Positions 6,767-23,873 of a DNA stretch of 64,000 bases are shown one piece after another; positions within the stretch are counted from its first letter, which is position 1; each line of letters begins with the position of its first letter. The stretch spans positions 2,127,501 through 2,191,500 of the forward strand of contig OX352322.1 in assembly GCA_947090765.1 (NCBI GenBank). Reading direction: 5' to 3'. A program made the position numbers and the translations under genes. The notes under the pieces are model-generated. The model saw nothing but the letters and a program-made list of their open reading frames with translations. It did no database searches and was not told where the DNA came from. The stretch comes from Pseudomonas sp. MM223 (lineage in GTDB: Bacteria > Pseudomonadota > Gammaproteobacteria > Pseudomonadales > Pseudomonadaceae).

Positions 6767-8611
6767 CTATTTTCTGCCAACAAACTCCGTAGCCTCACCC
6801 CCACCTGCATCCAGCTGATACACCCGCATCGGCCGCCCCTGTTCATCAAAGAACACTTGCCCCAGCCCCGCACCATTCCACAAGCGCTCCCCGGCTTTGC
6901 TGTGGCTGGGCGTACGCGGTACCACCTCCATTTCCCGGCGCTTGGTAAACCAGTTGAGCGGCGAGCGCGGCGCATACAGCCAGCGGTTAAGCCGGTCGAG
7001 CACATCCAGCAGGCGCCGGGGGAACTCGTTCTTGATCCCGCTGCTGGTCACCTGCCACAAGTGCGGGCTGCGCTGGCGGTGGCGGATCAGCACTTCGTAG
7101 ACGAACGAGTAGTGCACATCCCCGGACAGCACCACGTAGTGCCCCGGCGTGCGCGAGTGGCGGAAGATGTTGAGGATGACCTGCGCTGCGCCTCGGTGTG
7201 CCATCCAGTTTTCGGCATCCACCAAAAGCGGGTAGCCGAGCCAGCTGAACACCTTCTGCACGGTCTCGATCAGCTTCACGCCAAAAATTGGCGCAGGCGA
7301 GACGATGACCGCTGACGGGTGGTCGAGCAGCGCCTGCTGCAATTCGCTCAGCGCTTCCCAGTCGAGCAGACCGGACGGCTTGGCCAGGTTGCTTTCGCTG
7401 CGCCAGCGGCGGGTGCGGGTGTCCAGCACCAGCAAGGGTGGGTGGGTTGGCAAGCTGAATTGCCAGCCCTGGAAGCGCAACAGTTCGCCGATCAGTTCAT
7501 CGCGGGCCTGGCTGCACAACGCCTGGTATTGATTGACCAGTGGCTTGCAGCTGTCCGGATCATTGCCCCAGGCCTGGCACAGCAGATAGCCGAGCAGGGC
7601 ATTGCCGATGATCCGCCGCGAGAACGGGTGGCCGTAGGCGGTTTCTTCCCACTGTGCCGAAAGGTTCCAGTCGTCGGTGATGTCGTGGTCGTCGAAGATC
7701 ATCAGGCAGGGCAGGTGAGCCATCACCCGCGCCACCTGGCCGAGGTGCCCGGCAAACGCCTGAATCAGCGGCAGTTCCTGCTGGTAGCGGCCCTGGTGCT
7801 GGGCGCTCAGCCCATTGGGCATGGCCGTGTCCACCAACTGCCAAGGCTCGGGTGACCATACCAGCAGGTACATGGCCATGACCTCGGCGAAGGTCACCAG
7901 ATGGTTATCGGCGTTGCTGGACGAGAAGATCGGCTTGCGCTTGCCGCCAAAAAAGCGCTCGCGCAGGGTGTCATTGGTTTCCTGCGCCGGCAGCAAGTCG
8001 GCGCGGTGGTAGTAGCTGGCCGGGTGCTTGTAGAGCGCCTGGCTGTCGGCGACCACGGCGCCATCCAGTTGCTCGTCGAACAGGCCCAGGCGCTCAATCA
8101 GGCTATGGATAGCGCGCAGCATCGGGCCGGCGACATCGTCGGTGTACACCTGGTCGCCGGTCATCAGCAGCACGGCCGGGCGGTCTTCAGGCTGCTTGCA
8201 GGCCTGCAGCAGGCGGTCAGCGCACAGCAGGCCATCGACAGCAGGGTGATGGGGCTTGCGGCAGGAACCGTGCAGCAAGTGGTCGAGACGGTCGCGCAGC
8301 ACCAGGCTTGGGCGCTGCGTGCCGGGGTAGAGCAGGTGCGGCGCCCAACCAGCGATGCCCTGGCCGTTGATGAGCAGGTCGTAGTCGAGGTGCTGGTTGC
8401 AAGGGAGGGGGCTGACGAAGTGGATATCCAGCAAGTGGATGAAGGCGTGCCGGCCGACCGGGACGACCTGGCAATCGACCTTGGCCTCGCGTGCCGGGAA
8501 GACGAATTTGGGTTGCAGCGGTTGGGTAGCGACCAGCCAGATGGCCAGGCGCTGGGGTTCCAGGCGGCGCAGTACCGGGCCGGCGAGTACAAGGGGCAAG
8601 GATGGGGTCAT
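6767..8611 (-). CDS. PhoD-like metallophosphatase
   Basis: 614 aa from the ATG at 8611. Metal-site motifs of the PhoD/alkaline phosphatase D superfamily are present in order: LLMTGDQVYTDD (about residues 150-161), LMIFDDHDITDDWNL (about 305-320) and VVLSGDVHYSFVYE (about 490-503). There is no obvious signal peptide, so unlike classical secreted PhoD it is probably cytoplasmic. It would hydrolyse phosphate esters or diesters with metal ions; the substrate is unknown. It stands alone, with a REP on its 3' side. Confidence 0.8.
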   Translation of the reverse strand: MTPSLPLVLAGPVLRRLEPQRLAIWLVATQPLQPKFVFPAREAKVDCQVVPVGRHAFIHLLDIHFVSPLPCNQHLDYDLLINGQGIAGWAPHLLYPGTQRPSLVLRDRLDHLLHGSCRKPHHPAVDGLLCADRLLQACKQPEDRPAVLLMTGDQVYTDDVAGPMLRAIHSLIERLGLFDEQLDGAVVADSQALYKHPASYYHRADLLPAQETNDTLRERFFGGKRKPIFSSSNADNHLVTFAEVMAMYLLVWSPEPWQLVDTAMPNGLSAQHQGRYQQELPLIQAFAGHLGQVARVMAHLPCLMIFDDHDITDDWNLSAQWEETAYGHPFSRRIIGNALLGYLLCQAWGNDPDSCKPLVNQYQALCSQARDELIGELLRFQGWQFSLPTHPPLLVLDTRTRRWRSESNLAKPSGLLDWEALSELQQALLDHPSAVIVSPAPIFGVKLIETVQKVFSWLGYPLLVDAENWMAHRGAAQVILNIFRHSRTPGHYVVLSGDVHYSFVYEVLIRHRQRSPHLWQVTSSGIKNEFPRRLLDVLDRLNRWLYAPRSPLNWFTKRREMEVVPRTPSHSKAGERLWNGAGLGQVFFDEQGRPMRVYQLDAGGGEATEFVGRK

Positions 8612-8703
8612 CAACAGCTCTGAAGTGGCGCGAAAGCGATAGCAAACAAAAACGGGCGGAAAATGCTGAACACTTCCCGCCCGTCAGGCAAACCCGATAT
8701 GTA

Positions 8704-9631
8704 TCAGGCTTTTACAGCCATCAACTTCTCCAGCTTCTCCTGGTCCCGCGCAAACTGGCGAATGCCCTCGGCCAGCTTCTCGGTGCCCATGGCATCTTCG
8801 TTCATCGCCCAGCGGAACTGGCTTTCGTTCAGCTGCTGTTTGGCCTCGCCGGCATTGCCCGGCTTGAGCACGCGCGGCAGCTTCACCCTGGTCATCGCTC
8901 AACTGCTGCAACAGCTCAGGGCTGATGGTCAGGCGGTCGCAGCCGGCCAGTTGTTCGATCTGGCCGATATTGCGGAAGCTGGCGCCCATGACCACGGTGT
9001 CGTAGCCATTGGCCTTGTAGTAGTTGTAGATGCGCGTTACCGACTGCACGCCAGGGTCCTCGGCGCCCACGTAATCTGTGCCGGTGCTCTTCTTGTACCA
9101 GTCGTAGATACGGCCCACGAACGGCGAAATCAGGAACACCCCGGCATCGGCACAGGCCTGGGCCTGGGCGAAGGAGAACAGCAGGGTGAGGTTGGTCTGA
9201 ATACCTTCCTTCTCCAGCTGCTCGGCCGCGCGGATGCCTTCCCAGGTAGAGGCGAGCTTGATCAGCACGCGGTCTTTGGAGACCCCGGCTGCGTCATACA
9301 GCCCGATCAGCTGGCGGGCTTTGTTCAGCAGCGCCGGTTCATCGAACGACAGGCGAGCATCCACCTCGGTGGAGATGCGCCCCGGGATGACCTTGAGGAT
9401 GCCCGAACCCACGGCCACCGCGAACTTGTCGCAGGCCAGGTCGACATCGCCCTTGGCATCGGCCTTTACCTGCTTGAGCAAGTCGGCGTAGCCCGGGATG
9501 GCGGCGGCCTTCAGCAGCAGCGACGGGTTGGTGGTGGCATCGACCGGCTTCAGGCGAGTGATGGCGTCCAGGTCCCCGGTGTCGGCGACCACGGTGGTGA
9601 ACTGCTTGAGTTGTTCCAGCTTGGAAGTCAT
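8704..9631 (-). pseudogene. tal: Transaldolase B, frameshifted near the C-terminus as read
   Basis: The start at 9631 gives [20 protein letters not shown] and a full class I transaldolase: [13 protein letters not shown], Schiff-base lysine in [14 protein letters not shown], and [11 protein letters not shown]. After SDDQG (near 8882-8892) one extra base breaks the frame. The other frame continues [20 protein letters not shown] and ends correctly at 8704. As read, about 60 C-terminal residues are replaced by unrelated sequence. The enzyme moves a C3 unit in the non-oxidative pentose phosphate pathway. Sequencing error is a strong alternative. Confidence 0.85.
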
Positions 9632-9700
9632 GGGCGTGCTCTGTCCTGTGCATTTACTCGACATTACCCGAGCCCCGACAGCCGCTCAAGGGCCTGTAGG

Positions 9701-9718
9701 TGCGGGCTTGCCCGCGAG
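9701..9718. repeat. Single REP core
   Basis: TGCGGGCTTGCCCGCGAG is the P. putida REP core, upstream of tal. Confidence 0.7.
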
Positions 9719-9798
9719 GGCGGTGCGAGAGGTGAAGATTCGAGTGCCAAGCCGCCATGAGGTTCCGCATACACAATTTCCGAACCCTGCACGACCCC

Positions 9799-9917
9799 TT
9801 GTAGGAGCGGCCTTGCGTCGCGATAGGGCTGCAAAGCAGCCCCAGGATTTCAGCGCAGATGCATAGGGTGCTGGGGCTGCTTTGCAGCCCTATCGCGACA
9901 CAAGGCCGCTCCTACAA
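9799..9917. repeat. Long inverted REP pair between tal and dusA
   Basis: Two 47-bp arms (9799-9845 and 9871-9917) are reverse complements with one mismatch and a 25-bp spacer. Each begins with the REP motif TTGTAGGAGCGGCCTTG. The pair ends 9 bp after the dusA stop and can form a large hairpin there. Confidence 0.9.
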
Positions 9918-9925
9918 CGACCGTG

Positions 9926-10936
9926 TCACCGCCCTTGCAACAACTCCACCGCCTGGTCAAACACCGCCAACGGCTCCGCCGCCTTGTGAATATCCGCCGA
10001 CAGCAGCTGGCGGAAGCGCCGCGCCCCCTTGAACCCTTGGGCCAGCCCCAGAATATGCCGGGTAACGTGGTGCATTGCGCCACCGCTTTCCATATGCGCC
10101 ACGATATAAGGCCGCAACTGCGCCAGCGCTTCGCTACGGCTGACCACCGGCGCATCGCTGCCGAACAGCTGCTGGTCCACCTCTGCCAGCAGGTAAGGGT
10201 TGTGATACGCCTCACGCCCCAGCATCACGCCATCGAATGTTTCGAGGTGTGCCTGGCATTCGTCCAGGGTCTTGATCCCACCGTTGAGCACAATCTCAAG
10301 GTCCGGGAAGTCCGCCTTCAGTTGCGCCGCCACGTCATAGCGCAGCGGCGGAATTTCGCGGTTTTCCTTCGGCGACAATCCTTCCAGAATCGCGATACGC
10401 GCATGCACGGTAAAACTCCGGCACCCCGCCTCGCGCACCTGCCCGACGAAGTCGCACAGTTCGGCATAGCTGTCGCGGCCATTAATGCCAATGCGGTGCT
10501 TCACCGTCACCGGGGTCGACACCGCATCACGCATGGCCTTCACGCAATCGGCCACCAGCGCCGGGTGGGCCATCAGGCAGGCGCCGATCATGTTGTTCTG
10601 CACCCGGTCGCTCGGGCAGCCGACGTTGAGGTTCACCTCGTCGTAGCCCGCTTCCTCCGCCAGGCGCGCACAGGCGGCCAGGTCCGCAGGCACGCTACCG
10701 CCCAGTTGCAGGGCCAGCGGGTGCTCGGAGGCATCGTGGCGCAGGAAACGGTGGGCATCGTTGTGCAGCAGGGCACCGGTGGTGACCATTTCGGTGTAGA
10801 GCAGGGTTTGCTTGGAGAGTAGGCGCAGGAAGAAGCGGCAGTGGCGGTCTGTCCAATCCATCATCGGTGCAACAGAAAACCTCCTAACTACCGTATCGCC
10901 TGAGGTTCCGAGGTTTTCCGCTTGTTTCTGGGGCAT
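9926..10936 (-). CDS. dusA: tRNA-dihydrouridine synthase A with a prophage-supplied start
   Basis: 336 aa from the ATG at 10936. FMN-dependent reduction of uridines in the tRNA D-loop. Family motifs: RFSVAPMMDWTDRHCRFFLR, the catalytic Cys in NVGCPSDRVQNN, and LNGGIKTLDE. Codons upstream of RFSVAPMMD come from the prophage: the present start is MPQKQAENLG, whereas the displaced host start at the other end of the prophage reads MPQESAVNQR. The integrating phage thus rebuilds a complete reading frame with its own start and presumably its own promoter. An in-frame extension to 11032 is less likely. Confidence 0.92.
   Translation of the reverse strand: MPQKQAENLGTSGDTVVRRFSVAPMMDWTDRHCRFFLRLLSKQTLLYTEMVTTGALLHNDAHRFLRHDASEHPLALQLGGSVPADLAACARLAEEAGYDEVNLNVGCPSDRVQNNMIGACLMAHPALVADCVKAMRDAVSTPVTVKHRIGINGRDSYAELCDFVGQVREAGCRSFTVHARIAILEGLSPKENREIPPLRYDVAAQLKADFPDLEIVLNGGIKTLDECQAHLETFDGVMLGREAYHNPYLLAEVDQQLFGSDAPVVSRSEALAQLRPYIVAHMESGGAMHHVTRHILGLAQGFKGARRFRQLLSADIHKAAEPLAVFDQAVELLQGR
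10856..10881. other. attL, prophage left attachment site
   Basis: ATCCATCATCGGTGCAACAG and the following AAAACC match attR at 24 of 26 positions, differing at 10865 and 10871. The site encodes the conserved SVAPMMD segment of dusA, a known target of dusA-specific integrases. Confidence 0.88.
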
Positions 10937-10982
10937 TTCTCTATCTCTGTTTGTTGCCACTTTATGCCGGTTCTTTCTGGTT

Positions 10983-11033
10983 TTGCTACGTCGGTTGCTA
11001 CAATGTAGCAACTCAAACCAGCCGTGTAGCAAA
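10983..11033. promoter_or_regulatory. Palindromic arm-type or operator sites between dusA and int
   Basis: A perfect 19-bp palindrome, GTTGCTACAATGTAGCAAC (10994-11012), is flanked by half-sites TTGCTACG (10983-10990) and TGTAGCAAA (11025-11033). A TTGCTAC element recurs at the other phage end (52514-52531). They sit directly upstream of int and of the new dusA start. They could be integrase arm sites, excisionase sites or an autoregulatory operator. Confidence 0.55.
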
Positions 11034-11035
11034 TC

Positions 11036-12178
11036 ATGGGAACCATCACGCAGCGCAAGCGCAAGGACGGGTCATCTGGCTTCACCGCCCAGATCCGCAT
11101 CATGAAGGAAGGGAAGGCAGTTTATCAGGAAAGCCAGACCTTCGACCGGAAGGCGACGGCGCAGGCCTGGATCAGGAAGCGCGAGGCTGAACTGTACGAG
11201 CCCGGTGCCATCGAGAAGGCCAACCGCAAGGGCGTGACGATCAAACAGATGATCGACAAGTACCTAGTGGAGTACGAGAAGCTTCGGCCGCTGGGAAAGA
11301 CCAAGCGCGCAACCCTCAAGGCTATTGGTGAAAGCTGGCTTGGTGAGCTGGAAGACCAGCAGCTGACCAGCCAGAAGCTGGTTGACTACGCCATGGACCG
11401 GATCGAAAAGGACGGCATCCAGCCGCAGACGGTCGGCAACGACCTGGCCCACCTCGGCGCTGTGTTGTCCGTGGCCCGGCCGGCTTGGGGCTATGAGGTT
11501 GACCCGCAGGCCATGCCTGATGCCCGGCGCGTATTAAAGAAGATGGGGGCTGTCACCAAGAGCGTGGAGCGCAACCGCCGGCCGACTCGTGACGAGCTGG
11601 AACGCATCATCAAGTACTTCCAGGAGATGCGTGACCGCCGCAAGCAGGAGATCGACATGGTGCGGGTGGTGGTCTTCGCGCTGTTCTCGACCCGGCGTCA
11701 GGAAGAAGTCACGCGGATTCGCTGGGATGCGCTCAACGACCAGGAGCAGTCGGCGCTGATCACCGACATGAAGAACCCGGGGCAAAAGTACGGCAACGAC
11801 GTCTGGTGCCATATGCCCGACGAGGCTTGGCGCATCCTGCAGTCGATGCCACGGGTGGCCGACGAGGTGTTCCCGTACAACTCCAGGTCGATATCGGCGT
11901 CGTTCACCAGGGCGTGCCACTTCTTGCAGATCGATGACCTGCACTTCCACGACCTACGCCACGATGGCGTAAGCCGCTTGTTCGAAAAAGGGTGGGATAT
12001 TCCGCGCGTGGCCAGCGTGTCGGGCCACCGGGATTGGAACTCGATGCGGCGCTATACGCACCTGCGAGGGAAGGGGGACCCTTATGAAGGGTGGGAGATG
12101 CTGGAGGAGGTGGTAACGGGCCCCGTTATCGAGGCCCAGAGGCGGATCAAGAGGCGCGGCGAGAACCCTGGCCCATGA
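11036..12178 (+). CDS. int: Tyrosine recombinase (prophage integrase)
   Basis: 380 aa. An N-terminal arm-binding region and a SAM-like core-binding domain (about residues 65-170) precede the catalytic domain with Arg221 (STRRQEE), His305/Arg308 (FHDLRHDG), His331 (VSGHRDW) and the nucleophile Tyr340 (MRRYTHL). It catalyses attP x attB recombination in dusA. It is divergent from dusA, with palindromic sites between, and its 3' end overlaps the opposing prtN-like gene by 32 bp. Confidence 0.95.
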   Translation: MGTITQRKRKDGSSGFTAQIRIMKEGKAVYQESQTFDRKATAQAWIRKREAELYEPGAIEKANRKGVTIKQMIDKYLVEYEKLRPLGKTKRATLKAIGESWLGELEDQQLTSQKLVDYAMDRIEKDGIQPQTVGNDLAHLGAVLSVARPAWGYEVDPQAMPDARRVLKKMGAVTKSVERNRRPTRDELERIIKYFQEMRDRRKQEIDMVRVVVFALFSTRRQEEVTRIRWDALNDQEQSALITDMKNPGQKYGNDVWCHMPDEAWRILQSMPRVADEVFPYNSRSISASFTRACHFLQIDDLHFHDLRHDGVSRLFEKGWDIPRVASVSGHRDWNSMRRYTHLRGKGDPYEGWEMLEEVVTGPVIEAQRRIKRRGENPGP

Positions 12179-14291: not shown

Positions 14292-15446
14292 TTATCGCTT
14301 CGGGTAGGTCTTGGTCAGTTCACCGTTGACCACATGGCCACGGCGCAGCACCAAGTTGGCCAGGGCGGCCCGGTCTTTCTGGCTGTGGCTGGCCTGCCGG
14401 AGCAGGCCGAAGTAGCTGTTGGCTGTCTCGCGCAGGTCCTCTGCTGGCGCAGCAGCGGTTCGTTTCATCGCCTGGGCAACCGACTTCTTCCTGGTGGTGC
14501 GTCGCCATGGCTTGATCACGTGCCCGACGAAGTCGATGCCGCGGTCAATCGGTTGGAGGATGGTCTTCGAAGGGTTCAGCCTGACGCCCAGGCTGGGCAG
14601 GAAGTCTTCGATCTGCCGCAGCCACTTGTTCAACTGCTGCGGAGATTCGTGCAACAGCACGAAGTCATCGACGTAGCGGATGTAGTGCTTGGCCTTGAGC
14701 GTGTGCTTGCAGAACTGGTCCAGTGCGTCGAGGTAGACGTTGGCGAAGAACTGCGACGACAGGTTGCCGATGGGCAGGCCGAGATATGCAGGCTGCGCCG
14801 TGAGTCGCTTGTGCTGCGGAACCCGGTTGAACAGGTGCGCCGGGCTGCGCTCGCTGTAGTTTTCCCGTGGGTCGTGCATCAGCACCTGCAACGCCAATTG
14901 CCGGAACCAGAGATCATCGATCCGCTCAGTCAATTGCCGGCCAAGCACGCGCTTGTCGATCGACACAAAGAAGTTTGCCAGGTCGCACTTTAGGTAGAAG
15001 CCGGGGCGTGACCAGTTCTGCGTCTGGCTGCGGATCTTCGCCTCCATGCGCTTACCGGCGTACAGCGTGCCGCGCCCGGGGATACAAGCGCAGCTGTCCG
15101 CAATGAAGCTGCTTTCGATCTGTGGACCGATGCGGTTGTAAAGCAGGTGGTGCACGATGCGATCGCGGAAGTCGGCGGCCCATACCTCGCGGGCCTTTGG
15201 CCGAGTAACCACAAAGCAAATTGAGCGACCTGGACGGTATCGGCCGGTGACCAGGTCGTGATGCAGCGCCGTCAGGTTCTGCTCCAGGCTCATTTCGAAT
15301 GCCAGCGCGCTGTTGCTGTTGCGCTTGGAGCGCCGGCAATCGTAGTAGGCCTGGACCAGTTCGCTGAACGGGTAGGGGGTTGAATCTGCGGACGGGCCGG
15401 ACGCGAAACTCGTTGTTCTTGTCGTTGTTGTTCTGATTGCCATCAT
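14292..15446 (-). CDS. DGR reverse transcriptase
   Basis: 384 aa if read from the ATG at 15446. RT motifs: RPKAREVWAADFRDRIVHHL (motif 1-2 region), LKCDLANFF (about residues 152-160), IGNLSSQFFANVYLD (226-240, the DGR-type [IVL]GxxxSQ signature) and the catalytic YVDD (258-261). It has no maturase or endonuclease domain, unlike group II intron RTs, and no retron msr/msd is seen. The N-terminal 21 codons overlap TR in another frame; no better start was found before FSELVQAYYD. It makes adenine-mutagenised cDNA from TR RNA together with Avd. Confidence 0.95.
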   Translation of the reverse strand: MMAIRTTTTRTTSFASGPSADSTPYPFSELVQAYYDCRRSKRNSNSALAFEMSLEQNLTALHHDLVTGRYRPGRSICFVVTRPKAREVWAADFRDRIVHHLLYNRIGPQIESSFIADSCACIPGRGTLYAGKRMEAKIRSQTQNWSRPGFYLKCDLANFFVSIDKRVLGRQLTERIDDLWFRQLALQVLMHDPRENYSERSPAHLFNRVPQHKRLTAQPAYLGLPIGNLSSQFFANVYLDALDQFCKHTLKAKHYIRYVDDFVLLHESPQQLNKWLRQIEDFLPSLGVRLNPSKTILQPIDRGIDFVGHVIKPWRRTTRKKSVAQAMKRTAAAPAEDLRETANSYFGLLRQASHSQKDRAALANLVLRRGHVVNGELTKTYPKR

Positions 15447-15486
15447 CGAAGTTCATGTTGAATGCGTTGTTGGCTGAGCGCTGCGA
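15384..15486 (-). repeat. DGR template repeat (TR)
   Basis: 103 bp. In the frame used by the VRs it encodes SQRSANNAFNMNFDDGNQ followed by NNNDKNNEFRVRPVRR. It contains nine AAC and one AAT codons, the adenine-rich codons typical of DGR templates because they can mutate to many residues but not to stop. The GC-rich 3' end (sense CGCGTCCGGCCCGTCCGC) is unchanged in both VRs and is the likely initiation-of-homing region. No stop codon interrupts it in the VR frame. Confidence 0.95.
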
Positions 15487-15649
15487 CCGGTCGTGCTATC
15501 TACGTCGCCCCGGCGATTGCTCATCGGGGTAACTGCGCTGGACCTACACGGACGTTTTAGACCGGCGGTATCCACGGGTGCGCATGGCGGTGCTCACAGA
15601 GCAGCGGCACGACCAGATTCAATTCGCACAGGACTGAAAGCCTTGACCT
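15487..15649 (-). ncRNA. Non-coding leader of the TR RNA
   Basis: 163 bp between avd and TR without a convincing gene. A CCCCG/CGGGG hairpin lies at 15508-15529. In other DGRs the RNA spanning TR and its flanks primes and templates cDNA synthesis, so this stretch probably belongs to that RNA. Confidence 0.45.
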
Positions 15650-16006
15650 TCAGGCAGCGGGCGCGGATGGGGTTGAGCGTTTCCAGGCATTGGCCTGCTT
15701 CCCGATGGAGGTGGTGACCTCCATGGTTGCGGCATGCTGGGAAACGCTGATGAAGCGGCTGTCTTTGAACAGTCGCATCAGCAGTTCGATCACCTGGACC
15801 TTTTCAACCAGGCTGGTCAGGTGAGGGCGTTTGTCCTGAGTTGAGTTCGCCCGGGCAATGAGCATCAGCACGTCGATGCATTCATCAATCACCCGGCGCC
15901 CCAGTGACTGCTTCAACTCTCGGGGAATATTGCGGGTGAGGTTTGTGGCCATCTGGAGCAATCCCAGTGAGGCCTTGTAGATCGAAAGCTCGGTGTGCAT
16001 TGCCAT
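15650..16006 (-). CDS. avd: Avd, accessory variability determinant of the DGR
   Basis: 118 aa from the ATG at 16006, preceded by GGAGGGG. It is an all-helical basic protein of the four-helix-bundle family (ELSIYKASLGLLQMATNLTR, RRVIDECIDVLMLIARAN). Its size and its place between the VR gene and TR match Avd of Bordetella phage DGRs, which forms a pentameric barrel and binds the RT and the template RNA. Without it mutagenic retrohoming does not occur in characterised systems. Confidence 0.85.
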   Translation of the reverse strand: MAMHTELSIYKASLGLLQMATNLTRNIPRELKQSLGRRVIDECIDVLMLIARANSTQDKRPHLTSLVEKVQVIELLMRLFKDSRFISVSQHAATMEVTTSIGKQANAWKRSTPSAPAA

Positions 16007-16027
16007 TGCGTGCCCCTCCATGAGCGA

Positions 16028-16045
16028 CCGCCCGTTGCCGGGCGG
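16028..16045 (-). other. GC-rich hairpin downstream of VR1
   Basis: Stem CCGCCCG (16028-16034) with CGGGCGG (16039-16045) and a 4-nt loop; the sense loop is GCAA. It begins 27 nt after the end of VR1 and has no T-run. DGR targets need such hairpins or cruciforms for efficient homing. Confidence 0.75.
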
Positions 16046-16061
16046 TTAAATGAGCGAATGA

Positions 16062-16652
16062 TCAAATGAAATATCTGCGGACGGGCCGGACGCGAAACTC
16101 GTCGTACTTGACGTAGCTGTACTGATAGCCATCATCGAAGTTCATGGTGAATGCGTAGTAGGCTGAGCGCTGCGAGCTGCTCCAGTAAGCGCCTTCGGTG
16201 ATCAGGCCGTGAACCCAGGCCTGATAGAGCTGGGAAGCTGCTGGCAGATCGAAGTCGGAATGGCCGTCAGCTTGGTACGCCCGGGCCGCTTCGGCAGCAG
16301 GGTGGCCGCCTTCTGCGATCAAGGCGTCAGTGTTGGCCTTGCCGTCGTGACGACTGGTTGCCTTCGAATCCTTGTTGCGGCCGCCCCATTCATGCTCTCC
16401 AACATCCTGGTGAGCGAAGATCAGGTAGTGGGCTGGAACATCACCGATGGCGGGAACAAAGCCGCCGTTAATGCCGCCCTGACCTGGCCATGGCTGGCCG
16501 ATCTCTGGAACGCCAGCAGGCGCCGTAGGGACAGGCAGTTGAGGCGGGGCAATTTGACTGATAACCGATGCCAGAGCCAACTGGGCTACCGTTGCAGCCG
16601 GGATCTTGATGGTTGCCTCACCGATGGTGAGCGTGACCTTTTCTTGTTTCAT
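16062..16652 (-). CDS. DGR target protein 1, DUF1566-like with VR1 at its C-terminus
   Basis: 196 aa from the ATG at 16652 (AAAGGA upstream). Residues 1-50 are a separate N-terminal segment (MKQEKVTLTIGEATIKIPAA). A DUF1566/Lcl-like domain follows (WPGQGGINGGFVPAIGD, HSDFDLPAASQLYQAW, AYWSSSQRSA). VR1 covers residues 160-194, where template Asn codons have become mainly Tyr, Ser, Asp, Thr and Val. There is no signal peptide or membrane span. It probably has the C-type-lectin-like fold of DGR targets, with variable residues forming a binding surface; the ligand is unknown. It sits in the early operon. Confidence 0.9.
   Translation of the reverse strand: MKQEKVTLTIGEATIKIPAATVAQLALASVISQIAPPQLPVPTAPAGVPEIGQPWPGQGGINGGFVPAIGDVPAHYLIFAHQDVGEHEWGGRNKDSKATSRHDGKANTDALIAEGGHPAAEAARAYQADGHSDFDLPAASQLYQAWVHGLITEGAYWSSSQRSAYYAFTMNFDDGYQYSYVKYDEFRVRPVRRYFI
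16073..16175 (-). repeat. DGR variable repeat 1 (VR1)
   Basis: 103 bp, same length as TR. It has 10 substitutions against TR on the coding strand, every one at a TR adenine (A to T seven times, A to G twice, A to C once). All non-adenine positions are identical. Confidence 0.95.
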
Positions 16653-16678
16653 GGCGGATTCCTTTGATTTCGACTGAA

Positions 16679-17290
16679 TCAAGCAACTGATTGGAAAGCC
16701 TGGAGGGCGAAGTACACGCGGGCACAGGCCTCAGCGTCCGGTCGGGCGCGGTGGGCGCCCACCAGTTCCTCACCGGTGAAGAACTTCAAGGCTTCGGCCA
16801 CGCTGGGCTGCTTGAACTGGCGGCCACGGCCGGCAGCGATCATCTTGGGCGTTGGCGGGCACTTCACGATGTTGGTGGTGGACTGGCAGGTGCAGAACTT
16901 CGGCGATTCGCGGAAGGTTTCTGCCACCCACGGGTCTTGGAAGCGCTTGAGGGCAATGCGCATGATGCGGTCGTCGAACGACACGTTATGGGCCACGCGC
17001 AGGCCTGCGCGGTTGGCGATGGCGAGGAAGCCTTCGACGGCCACCGCTTCGGGGATACCGTGCTCAAGTGCGATTTCGTTGGTGATGCCGTGGATGGCGG
17101 CCACCTCTTCGGGGATGCCCCAGCCGTCAGGGCGGACCATAGCTTCGAAGCTGTCGACCAGCTCGCCCTCGGGGGTGAAGAGCAGGGCGCAGATGTCTAC
17201 CAGGTGAGGCTGGTCCGGGTGGTCGCTTGGGTCGCGGAAGTTGGGAAGGCCAGTGGTTTCGGTGTCATACACGCAGATCAGGTCGGACAT
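16679..17290 (-). CDS. DnaQ-like 3'-5' exonuclease (DEDDh)
   Basis: 203 aa. Exo I motif YDTETTG (Asp9, Glu11), Exo II RVAHNVSFDD, and Exo III GAHRARPDAEA with the catalytic His and Asp. It is a stand-alone DEDDh exonuclease like those of other phages and the epsilon subunit, acting on DNA or RNA ends. It is the first gene after the leftward terminator at 17311-17331 and precedes variable protein 1 by 26 bp, so it may be co-transcribed with the DGR. Confidence 0.88.
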   Translation of the reverse strand: MSDLICVYDTETTGLPNFRDPSDHPDQPHLVDICALLFTPEGELVDSFEAMVRPDGWGIPEEVAAIHGITNEIALEHGIPEAVAVEGFLAIANRAGLRVAHNVSFDDRIMRIALKRFQDPWVAETFRESPKFCTCQSTTNIVKCPPTPKMIAAGRGRQFKQPSVAEALKFFTGEELVGAHRARPDAEACARVYFALQAFQSVA

Positions 17291-17310
17291 TTGAGATTCC
17301 TCGGGGCATT

Positions 17311-17331
17311 AAAAAGGCGCCTTGCGGCGCC
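17311..17331 (-). terminator. Intrinsic terminator inside the leftward early operon
   Basis: On the minus strand GGCGCC-GCAA-GGCGCC is followed by TTTTT. It separates the recombination genes from the exonuclease/DGR genes, so antitermination or a local promoter is needed for DGR expression from PL. Confidence 0.75.
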
Positions 17332-17364
17332 GGTTGTGCATATTTCGCTGTGGATAAGTCGGGG

Positions 17365-18196
17365 TCAGGCCACAACGTCTTCCAGGGTGGCGATGACCTT
17401 GTAGCTGTGCTCCAGGGCGGATTCGCCTTCCTTCTCCACGGCGATGACCTGGTCATCCAGCAGGCGAAGCAGCAGGGTGATGGCCTGGTCGCTGCTGATC
17501 GACAGTCGGGCCTGGGCCCAGTGGGCCTTGAACGGCTTGCCGTTGGCCTTGAGCACGATCAGCTGCTTGGCGTCGTCGTAGTCGAAGTCGCCGAACTCTT
17601 TGTTGACCGGGACGCTGCCTTCAATAAATTCAGCATCGACAACGTCGCTATCGTCCTTCGGGTTCTGCTGGGCCTGCTGTTCAGCCAGATCCAGCTGCTG
17701 CTCTTGGCGTCGGTCCAGGCCGGCGCCTGCGATGATCTCGGAAGCGCTCAACGGCAACTCGCCCTGGTCACGCTCGGCACGGATGCCATCCAGGCCTTCT
17801 GCATAGTCATTCGGCGCCAGCACCAGAAGCGCCAACTTGCCCGAAAGATCGATCAGCCCGTGCCGGTTGGGGTCCTGGGCATCTACCACGCCGGTCACGG
17901 TGATGTTCTTCTCTTTGAACTTGGAGTCGGCAATCTTGATCGGGATGGTGTCGACGCTGCGTGAGCTCGATGATGCCGACCGCCGTCCACACCACCTCTT
18001 CGGCCTGCTTGGTGATGCGGTCGATGACTTCCTGCTGGTCGTCTTCGCCCAGGCGCGGGAACGGCACCTTGATGTTGCGCAGCTCAAACAGAGCGGCTTC
18101 GACCAGATCGTGCGCCATCAGCTGATGGGCAAAGGTCATCGAGTCGATTCCGTGGAGCTTGGCGCGCTCGATGGCTTCGCGGTGTTCTACTTTCAT
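17365..18196 (-). pseudogene. Early phage protein of unknown function, frameshifted as read
   Basis: The first frame runs MKVEHREAIERAKLHGIDSM to VVWTAVGIIEL. The second continues SVDTIPIKIADSKFKEKNIT to the stop at 17365. The switch lies at about 17957-17966 and reads as one extra base near GAGCTCACGCAG. Joined, the protein has about 276 residues, with a helical N-terminus and a Gln-rich middle. No family recognised. It lies between recombination genes and the exonuclease; it could be a recombination accessory protein. The break may be a sequence error. Confidence 0.65.
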
Positions 18197-18205
18197 GGGG
18201 TTTCC

Positions 18206-18406
18206 TCAAGACTTGGCGATCTGTTCCAGCTTTTTCTGCTGGTGAACGCTCAGAAGGGTGCGCGGGCCATAGCGCTTGAAGCTGGCCCGCATGTTTTCGA
18301 CGAACTCTTCTTCCCAGCTGCCGTTGGCGTGCAGCTCGGCAGCAGCCAGCAGGGAAGTGAACTCTTCGACCTGGTCGTACAGTTCTTCCACGCTCTGGCT
18401 GGCCAT
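18206..18406 (-). CDS. Small hypothetical phage protein
   Basis: 66 aa (MASQSVEELYDQVEEFTSLL), helical and acidic in the first half and basic in the second. Its start shares one base with the stop of the exonuclease gene upstream, so it belongs to the recombination operon. No family recognised. Confidence 0.6.
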   Translation of the reverse strand: MASQSVEELYDQVEEFTSLLAAAELHANGSWEEEFVENMRASFKRYGPRTLLSVHQQKKLEQIAKS

Positions 18407-20091
18407 TACGCTGCTGCCTGACTGTGCCGAACCGACTGGATGTGATGGATCAGCGCGGTGCAGATGGCTTCGAAGTCGATGGCGCGGTACAGCTTGGCCG
18501 AGCGCTCTTGCGCGACCGCCTCAAAGCCCAGTGAGGCCAGGAAGTCGGCGGTGAGGTTGAAGCCGAGGGTGGTGCTGATGTCGCCAAGCTTGATTCGCCG
18601 GCCATCGTCACCGGCCTGCTGTGCTGCTGGCGCTGCGCTGGTGATCGGCGTCGCTGCTGCCTTTTCCTGGCGAAGCGAATCGCCGTCGGCGTAGCCGCCT
18701 GCCGGGCCAGTGACGGCCTGCTGCAACGGTTTTTGGTCATCCCGGGGCAGAGTCTGTTGGGCGGCTTTCTGTTCAGCCTGCTGGCGCGCCAGCTCGGCAT
18801 CGTCGCGCTTCTTCTGCTCAGCCTGCTCATGCTCGCTGATGCGGACCTTGACCAGCGCCACCAGTGCATCGTTTTCCTTGAGCACCAGATCCTGCGCATC
18901 GCTGAACAGGAACTTGTGGTTGACCGCCAGCTCGTTGAGGCTGACCAGGTTGGTGCGGATCAGGTCACCGATGCGGCTGGCTTCGATCTTCGCCCGGGCC
19001 AGCTCGCTGTCGGCCGCTTCGTTCAGGCTGTCGATGGTGCGCTTGCCCTTGATGGCTTCGGCAAAGTTGGCGTGCACCTTCGGCATGCGGATGTGGCCGC
19101 CCAGGGTGGCGTCGATCTGGTCGATGTGGTCCTGCAAGGCCTTGGCCGAGTCCATGACAATCTCGGTTCGGATGTTGTCCTTACGGGCCTTGACCAGCTT
19201 TTCCAGGTCCAGGCGCTTGCGGCGCGTCTCGGCGACGATGTCATCAATCGCCTTGAACAACTGGTCAATGCTTTCGGTCTGGCTCAGCGCGTGCTCTTTC
19301 GCAGCCTTGAGCTTGTCTTCGACCTCGTTGCACCATTTCACGGTGGCATCGGCGTCCGCGAAGTCTTTGTCGGTCGCCAGGTTGGTGTTGATGTTGCCGA
19401 TCACAGCCAGCGCATGGGACTTGAAAGCATCCAAGTTGCTCGCGGTTACCATGCCAGTCACATCGATGCGCAGGGCCGGCAGCTGATCAGGTGCAGCACC
19501 GATGACCTCGACCTTGACTTCCTTAACCTCGAAGCTGCCCAGGTCTTCTTCGAACTGGGCCCAGCCGGCCACCAACTGCTCCCGGCGCCCCTCAACAGGC
19601 CGGTACTCCAGGTGCTCGAAGTTGGTCTTCGTGCCATCCGAGCACACGAAGATCACGCGCTCGGCGCCGCTGACCAGCAATTGCTGCTCCAACTGCCAGT
19701 AATAGTGCGGCTCCAGCTCACCCGCCTGGATCTGCGCCACCACCTTCTGGTTCCACAGCTTGTGCTCAAAGAGCGTTTCGCCATCCATCGTGGCCCCGTC
19801 CATCGAGGCCAGCAGGTTGCCGGCTGTGCCGACGATTGGATACAGCTCTTCGCCCAGCATTTCCTCAACTAGTGGGCGGGCCAGCTCTTCGGTAGCGTGG
19901 CCACGGTCGAAGATGGCCTGCTGCTGGGGCGTGACCTCTTCCACGATGCCAGTCTTCTTCATCGCCAGCAGGTCGTTGCGGGTCTGGTACTTCGAAGCGC
20001 CCATCATCGCGGGCGCCTCCGAAGCGGTGAAATAGCTGGAGCGAAGGGCATGCCACTCGGGCGTGCCTTGCTGGACGTTATGCACTCGCAT
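18406..20091 (-). CDS. YqaJ/lambda-exonuclease-like viral recombinase
   Basis: 561 aa from the ATG at 20091, which has AAGGAG about 9 nt upstream. The N-terminal YqaJ nuclease domain (about residues 1-200) starts VQQGTPEWHALRSSYFTAS and carries catalytic residues in ATMDGETLFEHKLWN. The central part is a long coiled-coil (DUF1351-like, about 210-430) and the C-terminus has a Gln/Ala-rich linker plus a small domain. It digests duplex DNA 5'-3' to give single strands for the adjacent RecT annealase. Its start overlaps recT by 14 bp. Confidence 0.85.
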   Translation of the reverse strand: MRVHNVQQGTPEWHALRSSYFTASEAPAMMGASKYQTRNDLLAMKKTGIVEEVTPQQQAIFDRGHATEELARPLVEEMLGEELYPIVGTAGNLLASMDGATMDGETLFEHKLWNQKVVAQIQAGELEPHYYWQLEQQLLVSGAERVIFVCSDGTKTNFEHLEYRPVEGRREQLVAGWAQFEEDLGSFEVKEVKVEVIGAAPDQLPALRIDVTGMVTASNLDAFKSHALAVIGNINTNLATDKDFADADATVKWCNEVEDKLKAAKEHALSQTESIDQLFKAIDDIVAETRRKRLDLEKLVKARKDNIRTEIVMDSAKALQDHIDQIDATLGGHIRMPKVHANFAEAIKGKRTIDSLNEAADSELARAKIEASRIGDLIRTNLVSLNELAVNHKFLFSDAQDLVLKENDALVALVKVRISEHEQAEQKKRDDAELARQQAEQKAAQQTLPRDDQKPLQQAVTGPAGGYADGDSLRQEKAAATPITSAAPAAQQAGDDGRRIKLGDISTTLGFNLTADFLASLGFEAVAQERSAKLYRAIDFEAICTALIHHIQSVRHSQAAA

Positions 20092-20839
20092 CGGTGTGAT
20101 CTCCTTCAATTGGCGCCAGAGCGTGGATGCGCTCGATTTGCTCGGGGGTGACGGTGTACTTGCTGGTCAGGTTGGCCAGCACGTGTTCAGGGCTGGTGCG
20201 GTTGTTGGCGATCATCGATCGCCACTTGTCCGCGTTCTCTTCCAGCTTGCTGTCGGGGTAGGGCGGTAGCTGCTTGGGCTCGTCGGCCTTGCGGACGTGG
20301 GCCTGGTTCAGTTCACGCTCGGTGGGAATGTCCTGGACTTCTTCGGCCACCGGCATGCCGCGCAGCACATCGGGGAAGACGTCGCGCAGTGCAAATGCCC
20401 GGGCACGCATCTGGCGCATACGCTTCGGATACTGGGTCCAGGGGCCAGACTTGCCGGCCAGGCCGGCCAACTTGGCGTCGTTCATGCTGAACGTGCGCAC
20501 CTGCTCTTCCTCGCCGCGGCGTTTTACGCGGCAGGTGGCTGTTTCGCCGTCGTCCGTCTCGGTGATGTACTCACACATCGGAGAGCTGCGGGCCAGGGCG
20601 ATAACCGCGTCACCCCAAAGAGATGGGCGACCGTTGATGACTGCGATGCTTTGCATGGCCTGCATCGGTTGCAGGCCAAGTTCCATGCCCCACTGCACAG
20701 CAACCAGGATGTTGGCCGGTTTGCGCTGGAAGTCCTTGGGGACAATGTCGGAATTGGCCAGATAGTCGGCGAACTTCAAAGCTTCGTCGAGGTTCTGCGG
20801 GGCCAGGCTGAATGTTTGTTTGATCGCAAGATCGGTCAT
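20078..20839 (-). CDS. recT: RecT-family single-strand annealing protein
   Basis: 253 aa. RecT motifs VAVQWGMELGLQPMQAMQ, IAVINGRPSLWGDAVIALAR and SGPWTQYPKRMRQMRARAFA. It anneals homologous single strands in Red/RecET-like recombination with the downstream YqaJ exonuclease. It is preceded by two very small genes in the same leftward operon. Confidence 0.93.
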   Translation of the reverse strand: MTDLAIKQTFSLAPQNLDEALKFADYLANSDIVPKDFQRKPANILVAVQWGMELGLQPMQAMQSIAVINGRPSLWGDAVIALARSSPMCEYITETDDGETATCRVKRRGEEEQVRTFSMNDAKLAGLAGKSGPWTQYPKRMRQMRARAFALRDVFPDVLRGMPVAEEVQDIPTERELNQAHVRKADEPKQLPPYPDSKLEENADKWRSMIANNRTSPEHVLANLTSKYTVTPEQIERIHALAPIEGDHTDASA

Positions 20840-20988
20840 GGGAACCTCACAACAAGCATGTTTTTGCGGACCTCAATGCGGTGCAGCAGGCCCGGTTCGG
20901 AAGTCGGATACAAAAGGCCCTGCGATTGCAGGGCCTTGAGCAGGTCTTTCAGGTTTGCGGCGATAACCGCCCGGCATTTATTGGACAT
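20836..20988 (-). CDS. Small hypothetical phage protein upstream of recT
   Basis: 50 aa from the ATG at 20988, preceded by AGGAG. Basic and amphipathic (NLKDLLKALQSQGLLYPTSE). Its stop overlaps the recT start by 4 bp. Function unknown. Confidence 0.6.
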   Translation of the reverse strand: MSNKCRAVIAANLKDLLKALQSQGLLYPTSEPGLLHRIEVRKNMLVVRFP

Positions 20989-21235
20989 GGCGCAACTCCT
21001 GGCCCACCGGCTGGCGGCGGCAAAGAAGGGCAACACGACGGGCACGGGCCGAATGGATGCGCATGTGCATCAGCTTGGCCTGTTCATGGGAGATATCGCC
21101 GCTGAACAGGGCATAGCTGATCAGCCCAGCGGCGTAGCTCATTTCGGTTTCGGAAGCCACCAGCTCAGCCGGTGGTACTGCAAGCGCTCTGTCGATGCTC
21201 TCGTCGAACACCTTCTGCGCGGTTTGGTTGAACAT
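20978..21235 (-). CDS. Small hypothetical phage protein
   Basis: 85 aa from the ATG at 21235 (MFNQTAQKVFDESIDRALAV), mainly helical with a basic C-terminus (RIHSARARRVALLCRR). It overlaps the next gene by 11 bp. It is the first gene after a large inverted repeat in the leader. Function unknown. Confidence 0.55.
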   Translation of the reverse strand: MFNQTAQKVFDESIDRALAVPPAELVASETEMSYAAGLISYALFSGDISHEQAKLMHMRIHSARARRVALLCRRQPVGQELRHVQ

Positions 21236-21258
21236 GGTGGTTTCCTCGGTGGGACGTG

Positions 21259-21325
21259 TATTGGTCGTGACGCTCAAAAGCCGTAAACCTCCCGGACCAG
21301 GGGAGGCCGAGCGTCACGACCAATA
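21259..21325. repeat. Large inverted repeat in the leftward leader (possible structured RNA)
   Basis: Perfect 17-bp arms: TATTGGTCGTGACGCTC (21259-21275) and its complement (21309-21325). An inner CCTCCC/GGGAGG stem lies within the 33-nt loop. It sits between variable protein 2 and the next gene of the operon. It could be a processing site, attenuator, protein-binding site or small RNA. Confidence 0.6.
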
Positions 21326-21337
21326 AAGGCTCAGAAG

Positions 21338-21359
21338 AAGCCCCGCATGCGCGGGGCTT
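21338..21359 (-). other. GC-rich hairpin downstream of VR2
   Basis: A 9-bp stem with AAGCCCCGC (21338-21346) and its complement (21351-21359) has a 4-nt loop. The 7-bp GC core ends 28 nt from VR2, matching the spacing at VR1. The minus strand continues TTCTTCT, so it may also end transcripts. Confidence 0.7.
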
Positions 21360-21371
21360 TGAAGGAATGAA

Positions 21372-21851
21372 TTACTGAATGGGCAATCTGCGGACGGGCC
21401 GGACGCGAAACTCGTTGTCCTTGCCGTCGTAGTACTGAATGCCATCAACGAAGTACATGGTGAATGCGAAGTAGGCTGAGCGCTGCGAAGATGACCAGAG
21501 ATAGCCCCAGTCTTTGTAGCCCAGGTTCAACCATGCTTCGTAAAGCTCGGCAGCGGCCGGCAGGTAAAAGTCGCTGTGTCCGTCGGCCTGGTGGGCTGCA
21601 ACTGCCTTGGCGGCCGGATACTCATCACTGGCTTCCAGAAGCGCCAGGGTATTGGCCAGGCCATCGATCAGGCTGGTGGCCGGTGCTTCCACTTCATACG
21701 GGCCCCATTCAAAGCGGCCTAACTCTTCTCCGATGACCAGGTGGTAGGCCTCGGCGCCGCTGCGTGCCGGAACGATACCGGCGTAGATGCCGCCTTGGCC
21801 GGTCCAGACTTCGCCGATGGCAGGCGGGGTGAGCGTCAGTGCTGTGTTCAT
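21372..21851 (-). CDS. DGR target protein 2, DUF1566-like with VR2 at its C-terminus
   Basis: 159 aa. It is nearly all DUF1566/Lcl-like domain (VWTGQGGIYAGIVPARSGAE, HSDFYLPAAAELYEAW, GYLWSSSQRSA) and lacks the N-terminal segment of target 1. VR2 covers residues 122-156 and differs from TR at 12 adenines, giving Tyr, Phe, Val, Ile, Asp and Gly. No export signal is seen. It is the first gene after the operator-bearing leftward promoter at about 22170-22210, so it should be made early on induction. AGGAAA precedes the ATG. Confidence 0.9.
   Translation of the reverse strand: MNTALTLTPPAIGEVWTGQGGIYAGIVPARSGAEAYHLVIGEELGRFEWGPYEVEAPATSLIDGLANTLALLEASDEYPAAKAVAAHQADGHSDFYLPAAAELYEAWLNLGYKDWGYLWSSSQRSAYFAFTMYFVDGIQYYDGKDNEFRVRPVRRLPIQ
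21386..21488 (-). repeat. DGR variable repeat 2 (VR2)
   Basis: 103 bp, 12 substitutions against TR, all at TR adenines, none elsewhere. It differs from VR1 at many of those positions, so the two were mutagenised independently. It is about 5.9 kb from TR, so homing works at a distance. Confidence 0.95.
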
Positions 21852-22914: not shown

Positions 22915-23184
22915 TCAGTGCTTGTACAGGCGATACAGGAACCAATCCTTTATCTCTCTAAGCGCAAAGATCGCGAAGAAAGACACTATGTACAGGACGA
23001 AATAGGCAAACTCAGCCCAACTGCCATGCTGGCGGCTAAGCCATCCATCCAGCCACCAGACCACCACTCCGAAAGCGCCGAAGACGAGAAATGCCAGCGT
23101 CCATGCATGCTTTTCATGGGCGTCGTAAACCTTTCTTTCAGCTTGGTTCACCGTTTTCGCTCCTAGATTTATGTGCAACTCCAT
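22915..23184 (-). CDS. Two-span membrane protein downstream of the repressor
   Basis: 89 aa from the ATG at 23184. Membrane helices at about residues 28-45 (WTLAFLVFGAFGVVVWWL) and 58-75 (YFVLYIVSFFAIFAL). It overlaps the 3' end of the repressor gene by 47 bp in another frame. Its place between repressor and PL matches lambda rex genes. No family recognised. Confidence 0.55.
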   Translation of the reverse strand: MELHINLGAKTVNQAERKVYDAHEKHAWTLAFLVFGAFGVVVWWLDGWLSRQHGSWAEFAYFVLYIVSFFAIFALREIKDWFLYRLYKH

Positions 23185-23860
23185 GAATCTTCTCGTTCCT
23201 ACGCTTTCGCACCAGCGTGGTGATGGCCTCGATCTCGTCAATATCAATAGCGTTGCATGCGGCAGCTTCCAATATCGAGTCAAGTAGCTCAAGAACTTGC
23301 CGGGGATTAAAAGATACGCCAACAACAGATCTAAATAAGTCCTCCACCTGTTCGCCCTTCAGAGGCGAAAGAACCTCTTTAATTTGGCGCACCCGATAAG
23401 TAAGTGGAATATCGTTTTCTAGACCTTCAAGGCCCTTTCCCGAACTAAGACCTGCCTCTCGAAACACCCTGGTAGATGCCCCCAGCACCGCACCAACCAT
23501 ACCGCCAGATTTTGCCCCTAGCGGCCCTGAAATTTTTGCCAGGTGATGTGCTGCCGCAGCTTGGCCTGCTTCGTAGCCTCGACTTATTTCTTCGATATAA
23601 CCTGCAAGCCTTGGGCTGAATGCGGAAACGTCTATGCCAAGCATGTTGGCCAGCCGAGATGCCATAGCAACGTTGATTGCTCGCTTTCCGTTCAGATGGC
23701 TACTCAAGGTCCCTTGGCTCATTCCCAAGCGATCAGCAATCTCTTCCTGAGTAAGCCGTTTTTCTCTCGGTACTCGCTTGTTGTAGTCGTTCAGCTCAGC
23801 CTTCAAGGCCAAGCATTCTTCGACTTCCCAGTCTTCCAGCGCGCGTCGTTCAGTCTTCAT
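23138..23860 (-). CDS. HTH (XRE) phage repressor without a LexA-type peptidase domain
   Basis: 240 aa from the ATG at 23860. The N-terminal helix-turn-helix is RLTQEEIADRLGMSQGTLSS (about residues 37-56) and is followed by LNGKRAINVAMASRLANMLG. The C-terminal half (about 90-240) is helical and lacks the S24 Ser/Lys peptidase motifs, so classical RecA-stimulated self-cleavage is not expected. It is divergent from cro and flanked on both sides by identical-type operators, so it is the lysogeny repressor by position. An in-frame GTG at 23866 adds two residues. Confidence 0.8.
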   Translation of the reverse strand: MKTERRALEDWEVEECLALKAELNDYNKRVPREKRLTQEEIADRLGMSQGTLSSHLNGKRAINVAMASRLANMLGIDVSAFSPRLAGYIEEISRGYEAGQAAAAHHLAKISGPLGAKSGGMVGAVLGASTRVFREAGLSSGKGLEGLENDIPLTYRVRQIKEVLSPLKGEQVEDLFRSVVGVSFNPRQVLELLDSILEAAACNAIDIDEIEAITTLVRKRRNEKIHGVAHKSRSENGEPS

Positions 23861-23873
23861 TGACACAGATTAT

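Follow-up and report, generated by a model that had tools for sequence, protein, structure and literature searches.

A two-target diversity-generating retroelement in a probable Pseudomonas prophage, with a structured RNA that apparently pairs with the border of its template repeat

Introduction

A locus in Pseudomonas sp. MM223 raises the question of whether a single template repeat (TR) and a reverse transcriptase (RT) together diversify two separate genes, and, if they do, how the template RNA is organised and where the diversified proteins act. The locus lies within a stretch of 64,000 nucleotides (positions 2,127,501 to 2,191,500 of contig OX352322.1, assembly GCA_947090765.1), referred to below as the window, whose own numbering is used throughout. 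A sequence-only reading of the window had proposed a complete diversity-generating retroelement (DGR) with one template and two variable genes, and had described such an arrangement, with one target about 5.9 kb away, as uncommon. The best explanation of the locus as a whole, which we hold with considerable confidence, is a complete two-target DGR whose template RNA is built on a 5′ module and which lies in the minus-strand recombination and lysogeny region of a temperate phage.

Results

Adenine-specific substitutions in two variable repeats

The TR and its two variable repeats (VRs) are as follows.

15384..15486, minus strand: TR, 103 bp, with A at 33 of 103 positions on the coding strand
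16073..16175, minus strand: VR1, 103 bp, with 10 substitutions relative to TR, 10 of 10 at TR adenines
21386..21488, minus strand: VR2, 103 bp, with 12 substitutions relative to TR, 12 of 12 at TR adenines

Direct reading of the window reproduced exactly the repeat lengths and coordinates that had been claimed, and a recount placed all of the pooled substitutions (22/22) at coding-strand adenines of the TR, as had also been claimed. The hypergeometric chance of finding changes at A only is 3.9e-6 for VR1 and 2.3e-7 for VR2. The changes alter 10 residues in VR1 and 11 in VR2, and 18 of the 33 TR adenines are kept in both. In the final 30 bp of the coding-strand repeat, TR, VR1 and VR2 are identical. 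TR, VR1 and VR2 are the only full-length copies of the repeat in the genome (6.73 Mb, two contigs); the remaining 25 matches listed are short and weak (E ≥ 0.09), and a search of the whole genome with the target-2 protein matched only the two targets and the TR frame. With no fourth full copy and no fourth protein match, further VRs elsewhere in the genome were ruled out.

Reverse transcriptase, Avd and target proteins

Two genes adjacent to the TR encode the expected machinery.

14292..15446, minus strand: open reading frame (ORF) of the DGR RT, 384 amino acids (phrog_1423, 1.7e-116; PDB 8ub7, 3.7e-38; tree placement)
15650..16021, minus strand: Avd accessory protein (PF22296 bAvd, 47 bits, cut-off 40; phrog_3206, 6.7e-32)

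Both proteins thus matched DGR profiles, as the sequence-only reading had anticipated, and the IGNLSSQ and YVDD motifs that it reported are present in the RT translation. In the RT tree the window RT falls within the DGR RTs (support 97/96), while the group II (98/95) and retron-like (100/99) RTs form separate groups; the retron reference rows matched the retron model only below its cut-off. The earlier expectation that the RT would group with neither retrons nor group II introns was therefore borne out. Against curated models the RT scored 97.6 bits for group II (cut-off 300) and 45.6 for retron St85 (cut-off 235), and a retron or group II origin was ruled out by these sub-cut-off scores, the PDB match and the tree. 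We take 8ub7, the best PDB match, to be the BPP-1 DGR RT; the search output names it only 'Reverse transcriptase'. Avd scored 50.8 bits against NF033474, the NCBIfam Avd model, below its cut-off of 80, and a sequence search of solved structures gave no match up to E 0.1, a result that was not counted as evidence. Elsewhere in the chromosome a second RT (C1:5910542-5911318) matches a group II intron maturase with 290 bits, just under the cut-off of 300.

The VRs lie in the following genes, each with a hairpin beyond it.

16062..16682 (likely start ATG at 16652), minus strand: target gene 1, with a predicted C-terminal Lcl_C / C-type-lectin fold (phrog_4245, 7.6e-30; model and fold matches; Lcl_C sub-cut-off)
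21372..21851, minus strand: target gene 2, 159 amino acids, a paralogue of target 1 (phrog_4245, 2.8e-27; Lcl_C sub-cut-off)
16027..16046, minus strand: hairpin 26 nt 3′ of VR1, 8-bp stem, loop GCAA
21338..21359, minus strand: hairpin 26 nt 3′ of VR2, 9-bp stem, loop GCAT

The targets compare at 52% in alignment A1, and the VR is at the C-terminus of a protein with a predicted C-type-lectin fold, as in a DGR target. A GC-rich hairpin stands beyond both VRs and none beyond the TR. These hairpins were also considered as intrinsic terminators and rejected, since neither is on the list of terminator-like sites; the scan itself gave 9 sites, compared with 10.4 in shuffled sequence. Taken together, the RT, Avd, target and repeat evidence supports the proposal of a complete DGR with one template and two variable genes.

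Target number and diversification in related loci

For comparison, 80 genome and 80 viral loci were kept, the best 80 of 173 confirmed and the best 80 of at least 595 confirmed, respectively; since only the best-ranked loci were kept, the survey leans to close relatives. With split matches merged and the window included, the 161 loci comprise 109 with two VRs, 39 with three, 7 with one and 6 with none, several of the zero- and one-VR loci being contigs that end early. Dereplication at 97% RT identity left 145 loci (two VRs in 97, three in 35, one in 7, none in 6), and when only the 120 of these that extend 9 kb or more upstream are counted, two or three VRs are present in 116. That a two-target DGR is uncommon was therefore not confirmed, as two or three targets are found in 148 of the 161 loci, and multiple VRs are common in published surveys: a passage of PMC6642488 gives 28.6% of 948 DGRs, and one of PMC3521204 about a seventh, including the two-VR Pseudomonas fluorescens WH6. 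The layout with a remote second target is real, but its rarity did not hold up, for 34 of the 120 loci, the window among them, have a target more than 1.6 kb upstream.

VRs usually lie either about 640-710 or about 1030-1410 bp upstream of the TR. In the window the second of these places is without a VR and a remote VR is present instead, and the adjacent target resembles the second target of the relatives (80-87% to L001 and L081), not the proximal type (34-38%). The second-target position of the relatives is occupied in the window by a DnaQ-like exonuclease gene (16679-17290), just upstream of which lies a terminator-like site (17331-17316).

Under scoring lenient to A, the substitutions in the related loci numbered 4365 at A and 74 at non-A positions (total 4439); under symmetric scoring, 17 loci of the genus found through the RNA search described below gave 493 and 28 (total 521). 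The expectation that relatives would show no non-adenine changes thus failed in the strict sense, as such changes exist, but stood in that their level is low. Sister loci whose TRs differ at no more than 1 of 90 positions were then compared. At 300/300 flank identity, VR differences fell at A in 19/19 proximal and 13/13 second positions (L151/L135), in 10/10 and 14/14 (L083/L004) and in 12/12 (L095/L086). L151 and L025 share an identical proximal VR and differ in the second (13/13 at A), so the two targets can change independently. In most other identical-flank pairs the VRs are identical, and such pairs may be the same phage twice. Strong hairpins (stem score ≥12) follow 87 of 125 proximal VRs in the relatives, with 2 of 132 TRs and 171 of 1711 other ORF ends as controls; the commonest loop is CTTG, not GRNA. 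The 95 of 336 target ORFs that the motif rule did not settle were dropped. From its anatomy and its relatives, we conclude that the window DGR is probably of a working type.

A structured RNA on the 5′ side of the template repeat

The region between avd and the TR carries a known RNA family.

15484..15666, minus strand: RT-15 structured RNA (RF03018; Rfam, 157.4 bits, E 1.6e-38, full-length)

Its 5′ end covers the final 17 nt of avd and its 3′ end the initial 3 nt of the TR; it scores above the gathering threshold and has a covarying fold. Besides the window, it was found beside the TR in all eight clade loci tested with Rfam (6/6 and 2/2). A search with RT-15 only in 199 genomes of the genus, including that of the window, gave 18 places over the cut-off in 16 genomes, and all 17 places outside the window sit between avd and TR-RT, with two VRs in 15 and three in 2; these loci partly overlap those of the genome survey, and three sub-cut-off matches were left out. 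Over 30 loci, the predicted fold of the 5′ region has an energy of -54.96 kcal/mol and 48 pairs, of which 24 are changed on both sides. The RT-15 fold, likewise in 30 loci, has 96.4% of cells paired, a value reached in 0/500 shuffles and compared with 30-40% in slid controls; alignments A2 and A3 used here represent 30 of 70 dereplicated loci, and the RT-15 structure tested was derived from A2 itself.

The other side of the TR was analysed in the same 30 loci. The last 20 nt of the TR and the next 170 nt gave no notable conserved fold (9 weak pairs, -2.07 kcal/mol, 1 changed on both sides), and no Rfam DGR RNA matched 3′ of the TR at E up to 10. Measured in 154 loci, the median distance from the end of the TR to the codon of RT residue 30 is 25 nt; there is thus no spacer between TR and RT, and no structured spacer of the BPP-1 type was found there. 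We conclude that the template RNA is probably organised around a 5′ module, the reverse of BPP-1.

The TR also runs into the RT gene, overlapping the 5′ end of its ORF. In the window, the only ATG, GTG or TTG codons in the RT frame ahead of the conserved core are two ATGs within the TR, so the RT apparently starts there and the start of its gene is apparently encoded by the TR. No ribosome-binding site was seen in the sequence before these two ATGs. Among the 154 loci, 61 have an ATG inside the TR and no start in the RT frame upstream of the TR or within 60 nt after it; a further 44 also have a start after the TR, and in 49 a start lies upstream. A class of DGRs in which the TR overlaps the RT ORF appears in a section of PMC3521204.

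A probable long-range helix between RT-15 and the template repeat

Two segments suggest how the 5′ module could be connected to the far end of the TR.

15614..15622, minus strand: RT-15 linker 5′-UUGAAUCUG-3′, conserved and unpaired, complementary to the 3′ border of the TR
15380..15388, minus strand: 3′ border of the TR 5′-CAGAUUCAA-3′, partner of the RT-15 linker

In the window the helix has 9 pairs. It was compared in 149 loci with 73 unique combinations, after 12 of the 161 had been dropped (7 without a TR, 5 without the linker motif). Positions 1-3 are invariant over the 149 loci, and the same bases are invariant in other alignments too; for positions 4-5 the paired share is 90-96%. Position 7 lies two bases beyond the repeat; it forms a standard pair in 68 of the 73 combinations, compared with 45.5% in shuffled sets (0/5000 as high), and shows all four Watson-Crick types (C:G 40, A:U 15, G:C 9, U:A 4). 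Parsimony on the RT tree gave 11 pair-type changes at this position; both sides change on four branches, on three of them to a standard pair, and there are nine one-sided changes. Pairing of the linker with the TR thus appears to be supported by covariation.

Position of the DGR within the prophage

Genes around the DGR were used to judge where its targets might act.

18406..20109, minus strand: RecE/YqaJ-like exonuclease, between the two targets (phrog_7655, 1.1e-208)
20078..20839, minus strand: RecT-like annealing protein, between the two targets (phrog_561, 3e-64)
23138-23866: helix-turn-helix (HTH) repressor-like gene, further upstream than the targets
11036-12178, plus strand: tyrosine integrase

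Matches to terminase, head-tail adaptor, tail and tail-fibre genes are all on the plus strand, at 30.6-52.2 kb. In the six annotated relatives that were opened (Cruim01, Haboob, Magia, phPA-G, LPPA56 and QDWS; 6/6), the DGR is on the integrase or recombinase strand, 2-12 kb away, and in Cruim01, Haboob, Magia and phPA-G a repressor is annotated on its other side. Homologues of target 1 were found in 25 phage records. In PMG1, PA5oct, Medea1, PAN70 and U9, the 8-19 kb opened around the homologue contained no avd, no RT-15 and at most a short RT-like piece; these five phages are taken to be without a DGR on the basis of the opened stretches and of their absence among the nine records of 60-80% RT identity, 40 of 129 records being listed. 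The homologue has a repressor within 7 kb in PMG1, PAN70 and U9, and recombination genes nearby in Medea1. From the gene position and from the homologues in phages in which no DGR was found, we infer that the targets are probably non-virion binding proteins.

Several further observations concern the phages. In Medea1 (L204), positions 8001-9890 hold two target-like DUF1566 genes and, behind them, an RT-like stretch of 23 residues, a pattern that looks like a DGR that was lost while its targets were kept. Target homologues also occur in jumbo Pseudomonas phages of 285-288 kb, in PA5oct (L203) inside the terminal-repeat region. In the window, the ORF at 9926-11032, directly beside the integrase, is presumably a tRNA-dihydrouridine synthase gene, and the junction is a plausible prophage integration site. 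A direct-repeat search of 10600-60000 gave no pair readable as attachment repeats; two identical 46-bp direct repeats (36800-36845 and 37016-37061, 216 bp apart) lie within the late-gene region.

Discussion

The locus suggests the following mechanism. RT and Avd would bind a template RNA consisting of the folded 5′ module, RT-15, and the TR. The single-stranded RT-15 linker may pair with the 3′ border of the TR, looping the TR out and bringing the module to the site where cDNA synthesis must begin; this role of the clamp in cDNA initiation is an inference. The RT would then copy the TR, misincorporate opposite adenines and proceed toward the RT-15 fold, and the mutated cDNA would replace VR1 or VR2. 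By analogy with BPP-1, the VRs would be marked by the shared GC-rich 3′ end and by the hairpin 26 nt beyond it, which is absent at the TR. The outcome would be two small paralogous proteins of C-type-lectin fold diversified from one template. More tentatively, and as something quite possible though short of probable, we propose that this is a second DGR template design, in which a 5′ RT-recruiting RNA is clamped to the TR 3′ border, used on sets of intracellular early-phage lectin-fold proteins and not on virion adhesins. Because the 5′ RNA clamps onto the 3′ border, cDNA initiation would then be independent of a 3′ spacer of the BPP-1 type, and the intracellular targets would serve defence, counter-defence or superinfection control.

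A number of observations weigh against this account. In the helix, only position 7 covaries clearly; position 6 is paired in only 67%, positions 6 and 8 are no better than the shuffle, positions 1-4 are partly fixed by the motifs used to locate both strands, and the linker motif is missing in the five loci mentioned above. The evidence for the helix therefore lies mainly in position 7 and the conserved core. Of the second VRs only 17 of 110 have a strong hairpin behind them, and of the remote ones 12 of 39, so that proximal VRs are clearly marked, remote ones moderately and second ones weakly. In the window the DGR and the integrase are on opposite strands, whereas the six annotated relatives have them on the same one. 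Among the sister loci, L124 and L123, whose flanks are identical, differ in their VRs at 2 non-A positions and at no A position, and L111 and L021, with flanks 94.3% identical, show 18 differences at A and 18 at non-A. The first 30-50 RT codons beyond the TR carry somewhat fewer synonymous changes (p about 0.02), which makes a cryptic 3′ RNA element possible; for the first 15 codons p is 0.19, and similar dips occur elsewhere in the RT gene.

Such an element would allow initiation to proceed as in BPP-1, with a recruiting and priming sequence 3′ of the TR hidden in the first RT codons and RT-15 serving RNA stability, RT stop or expression. The structured RNA of BPP-1 does lie 3′ of its TR (Phage_DGR, L194 2319-2451), and the reduced synonymous change also speaks for this possibility. 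Given the 3′ side of the TR with no notable conserved fold and no Rfam DGR match, the lack of room for a spacer and the covarying clamp that ties the 5′ module to the TR 3′ border, we regard BPP-1-like initiation as unlikely. The targets, for their part, might be virion or tail-associated receptor-binding proteins, like those of most phage DGRs, and merely be encoded away from the tail genes. A part of PMC8144416 notes that tail protein is the usual annotation for viral DGR targets in clades 1, 4 and 6, and among our 15 viral fold matches (E up to 0.001) one is named a tail fiber and one an S74-peptidase protein. A virion role nevertheless seems somewhat unlikely, as the targets, RT, RecT and exonuclease are on the minus strand while terminase, tail and tail-fibre genes are on the plus strand from 30.6 kb, the DGR keeps to the integrase strand in the six annotated relatives, and the homologues with no RT or Avd nearby adjoin repressor or recombination genes in PMG1, Medea1, PAN70 and U9.

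The working state of the element can be questioned in a similar way, as one genome of this strain is the basis for it and the VR differences could be old marks of a machine that no longer runs here. With open ORFs, a full-length RT-15, no non-A drift in either VR and A-only change at both usual target positions in identical-flank relatives, a fossil DGR is very improbable. That the VRs are ordinary paralogous gene ends diverged by selection, with no retroelement mechanism, agrees with the two targets being paralogues, but with all 22 changes at TR adenines beside an RT and an Avd, and with the predominance of A in the relatives under both scorings (4365 to 74 and 493 to 28), its probability is negligible. 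A complete DGR with a 5′-module template RNA is thus the reading that we retain.

Multi-target DGRs are already known, and in this clade it is usual to have two or three targets. New here are the covarying RT-15 fold 5′ of the TR, the linker complementary to the TR 3′ border, the TR that runs into the RT gene and apparently encodes its start, and targets away from the tail genes, in the company of repressor, recombination and integrase genes and with homologues in phages in which no DGR was found. The RNA module, the hairpins and the distance from the tail genes had no part in the sequence-only reading. A literature search turned up no paper that connects RT-15 with DGRs or that describes the clamp, although either may have been published earlier; in the literature searched, RF03018 appeared in one paper, on lignin metabolism. 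The present findings give the RT-15 RNA family a likely role. Detailed knowledge of the DGR mechanism comes from one phage, and there, according to a section of PMC12875486, a structured spacer on the 3′ side of the TR serves to recruit the RT and to prime cDNA. With a large clade of proteobacterial phages that lack such a spacer and have a covarying 5′ module apparently clamped to the border of the TR, the generality of this mechanism becomes directly testable. The locus also points to hypermutation of phage proteins that are apparently not part of the virion, which would matter for the conflict between phage and host within the cell.

Comparison with known systems

The window resembles BPP-1 (mtd/avd/TR/brt) in its RT (32% identical), its Avd-like protein, the gene order target-avd-TR-RT, the C-terminal VR and the hairpin downstream of the VR. 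In BPP-1, too, the TR-to-VR changes are at adenines. The IMH and IMH* of BPP-1 differ in sequence inside the repeat, whereas in the window the last 30 bp of both VRs are identical to the TR. A passage of PMC12875486 calls IMH and IMH* nearly identical. BPP-1 has one annotated target, a tail protein, whereas the window has two targets away from the tail genes; BPP-1 matches the Phage_DGR RNA 3′ of its TR, whereas the window has a structured RNA 5′ of the TR and no spacer, and its TR overlaps the RT ORF. Four other reference DGR phages matched neither Phage_DGR nor RT-15. The VR-downstream hairpin is required in BPP-1 according to a part of PMC3240598, and the window loops, GCAA and GCAT, fall outside the GRNA consensus given there.

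Closely related DGRs occur in temperate phages of Pseudomonas and Burkholderiales, among them Cruim01, Haboob, phPA-G and Magia. These DGRs, about 160 loci, share with the window an RT of 62-96% identity, avd and, in all eight loci tested with Rfam, RT-15 beside the TR. They usually have two or three small targets, and the window differs in the place of its second target and in the type of its adjacent one. The gut phage DGRs with tentaclins in a section of PMC10743442 likewise have one TR and two lectin-fold targets; those targets have different topologies and are discussed there as receptor-binding, whereas the window targets are paralogues away from the tail genes. RF03018, whose one-line Rfam description makes no mention of DGRs, is here tied to avd, a TR and a DGR RT in the window, in the 8 clade loci and in the 17 places found across the genus, some of them shared.

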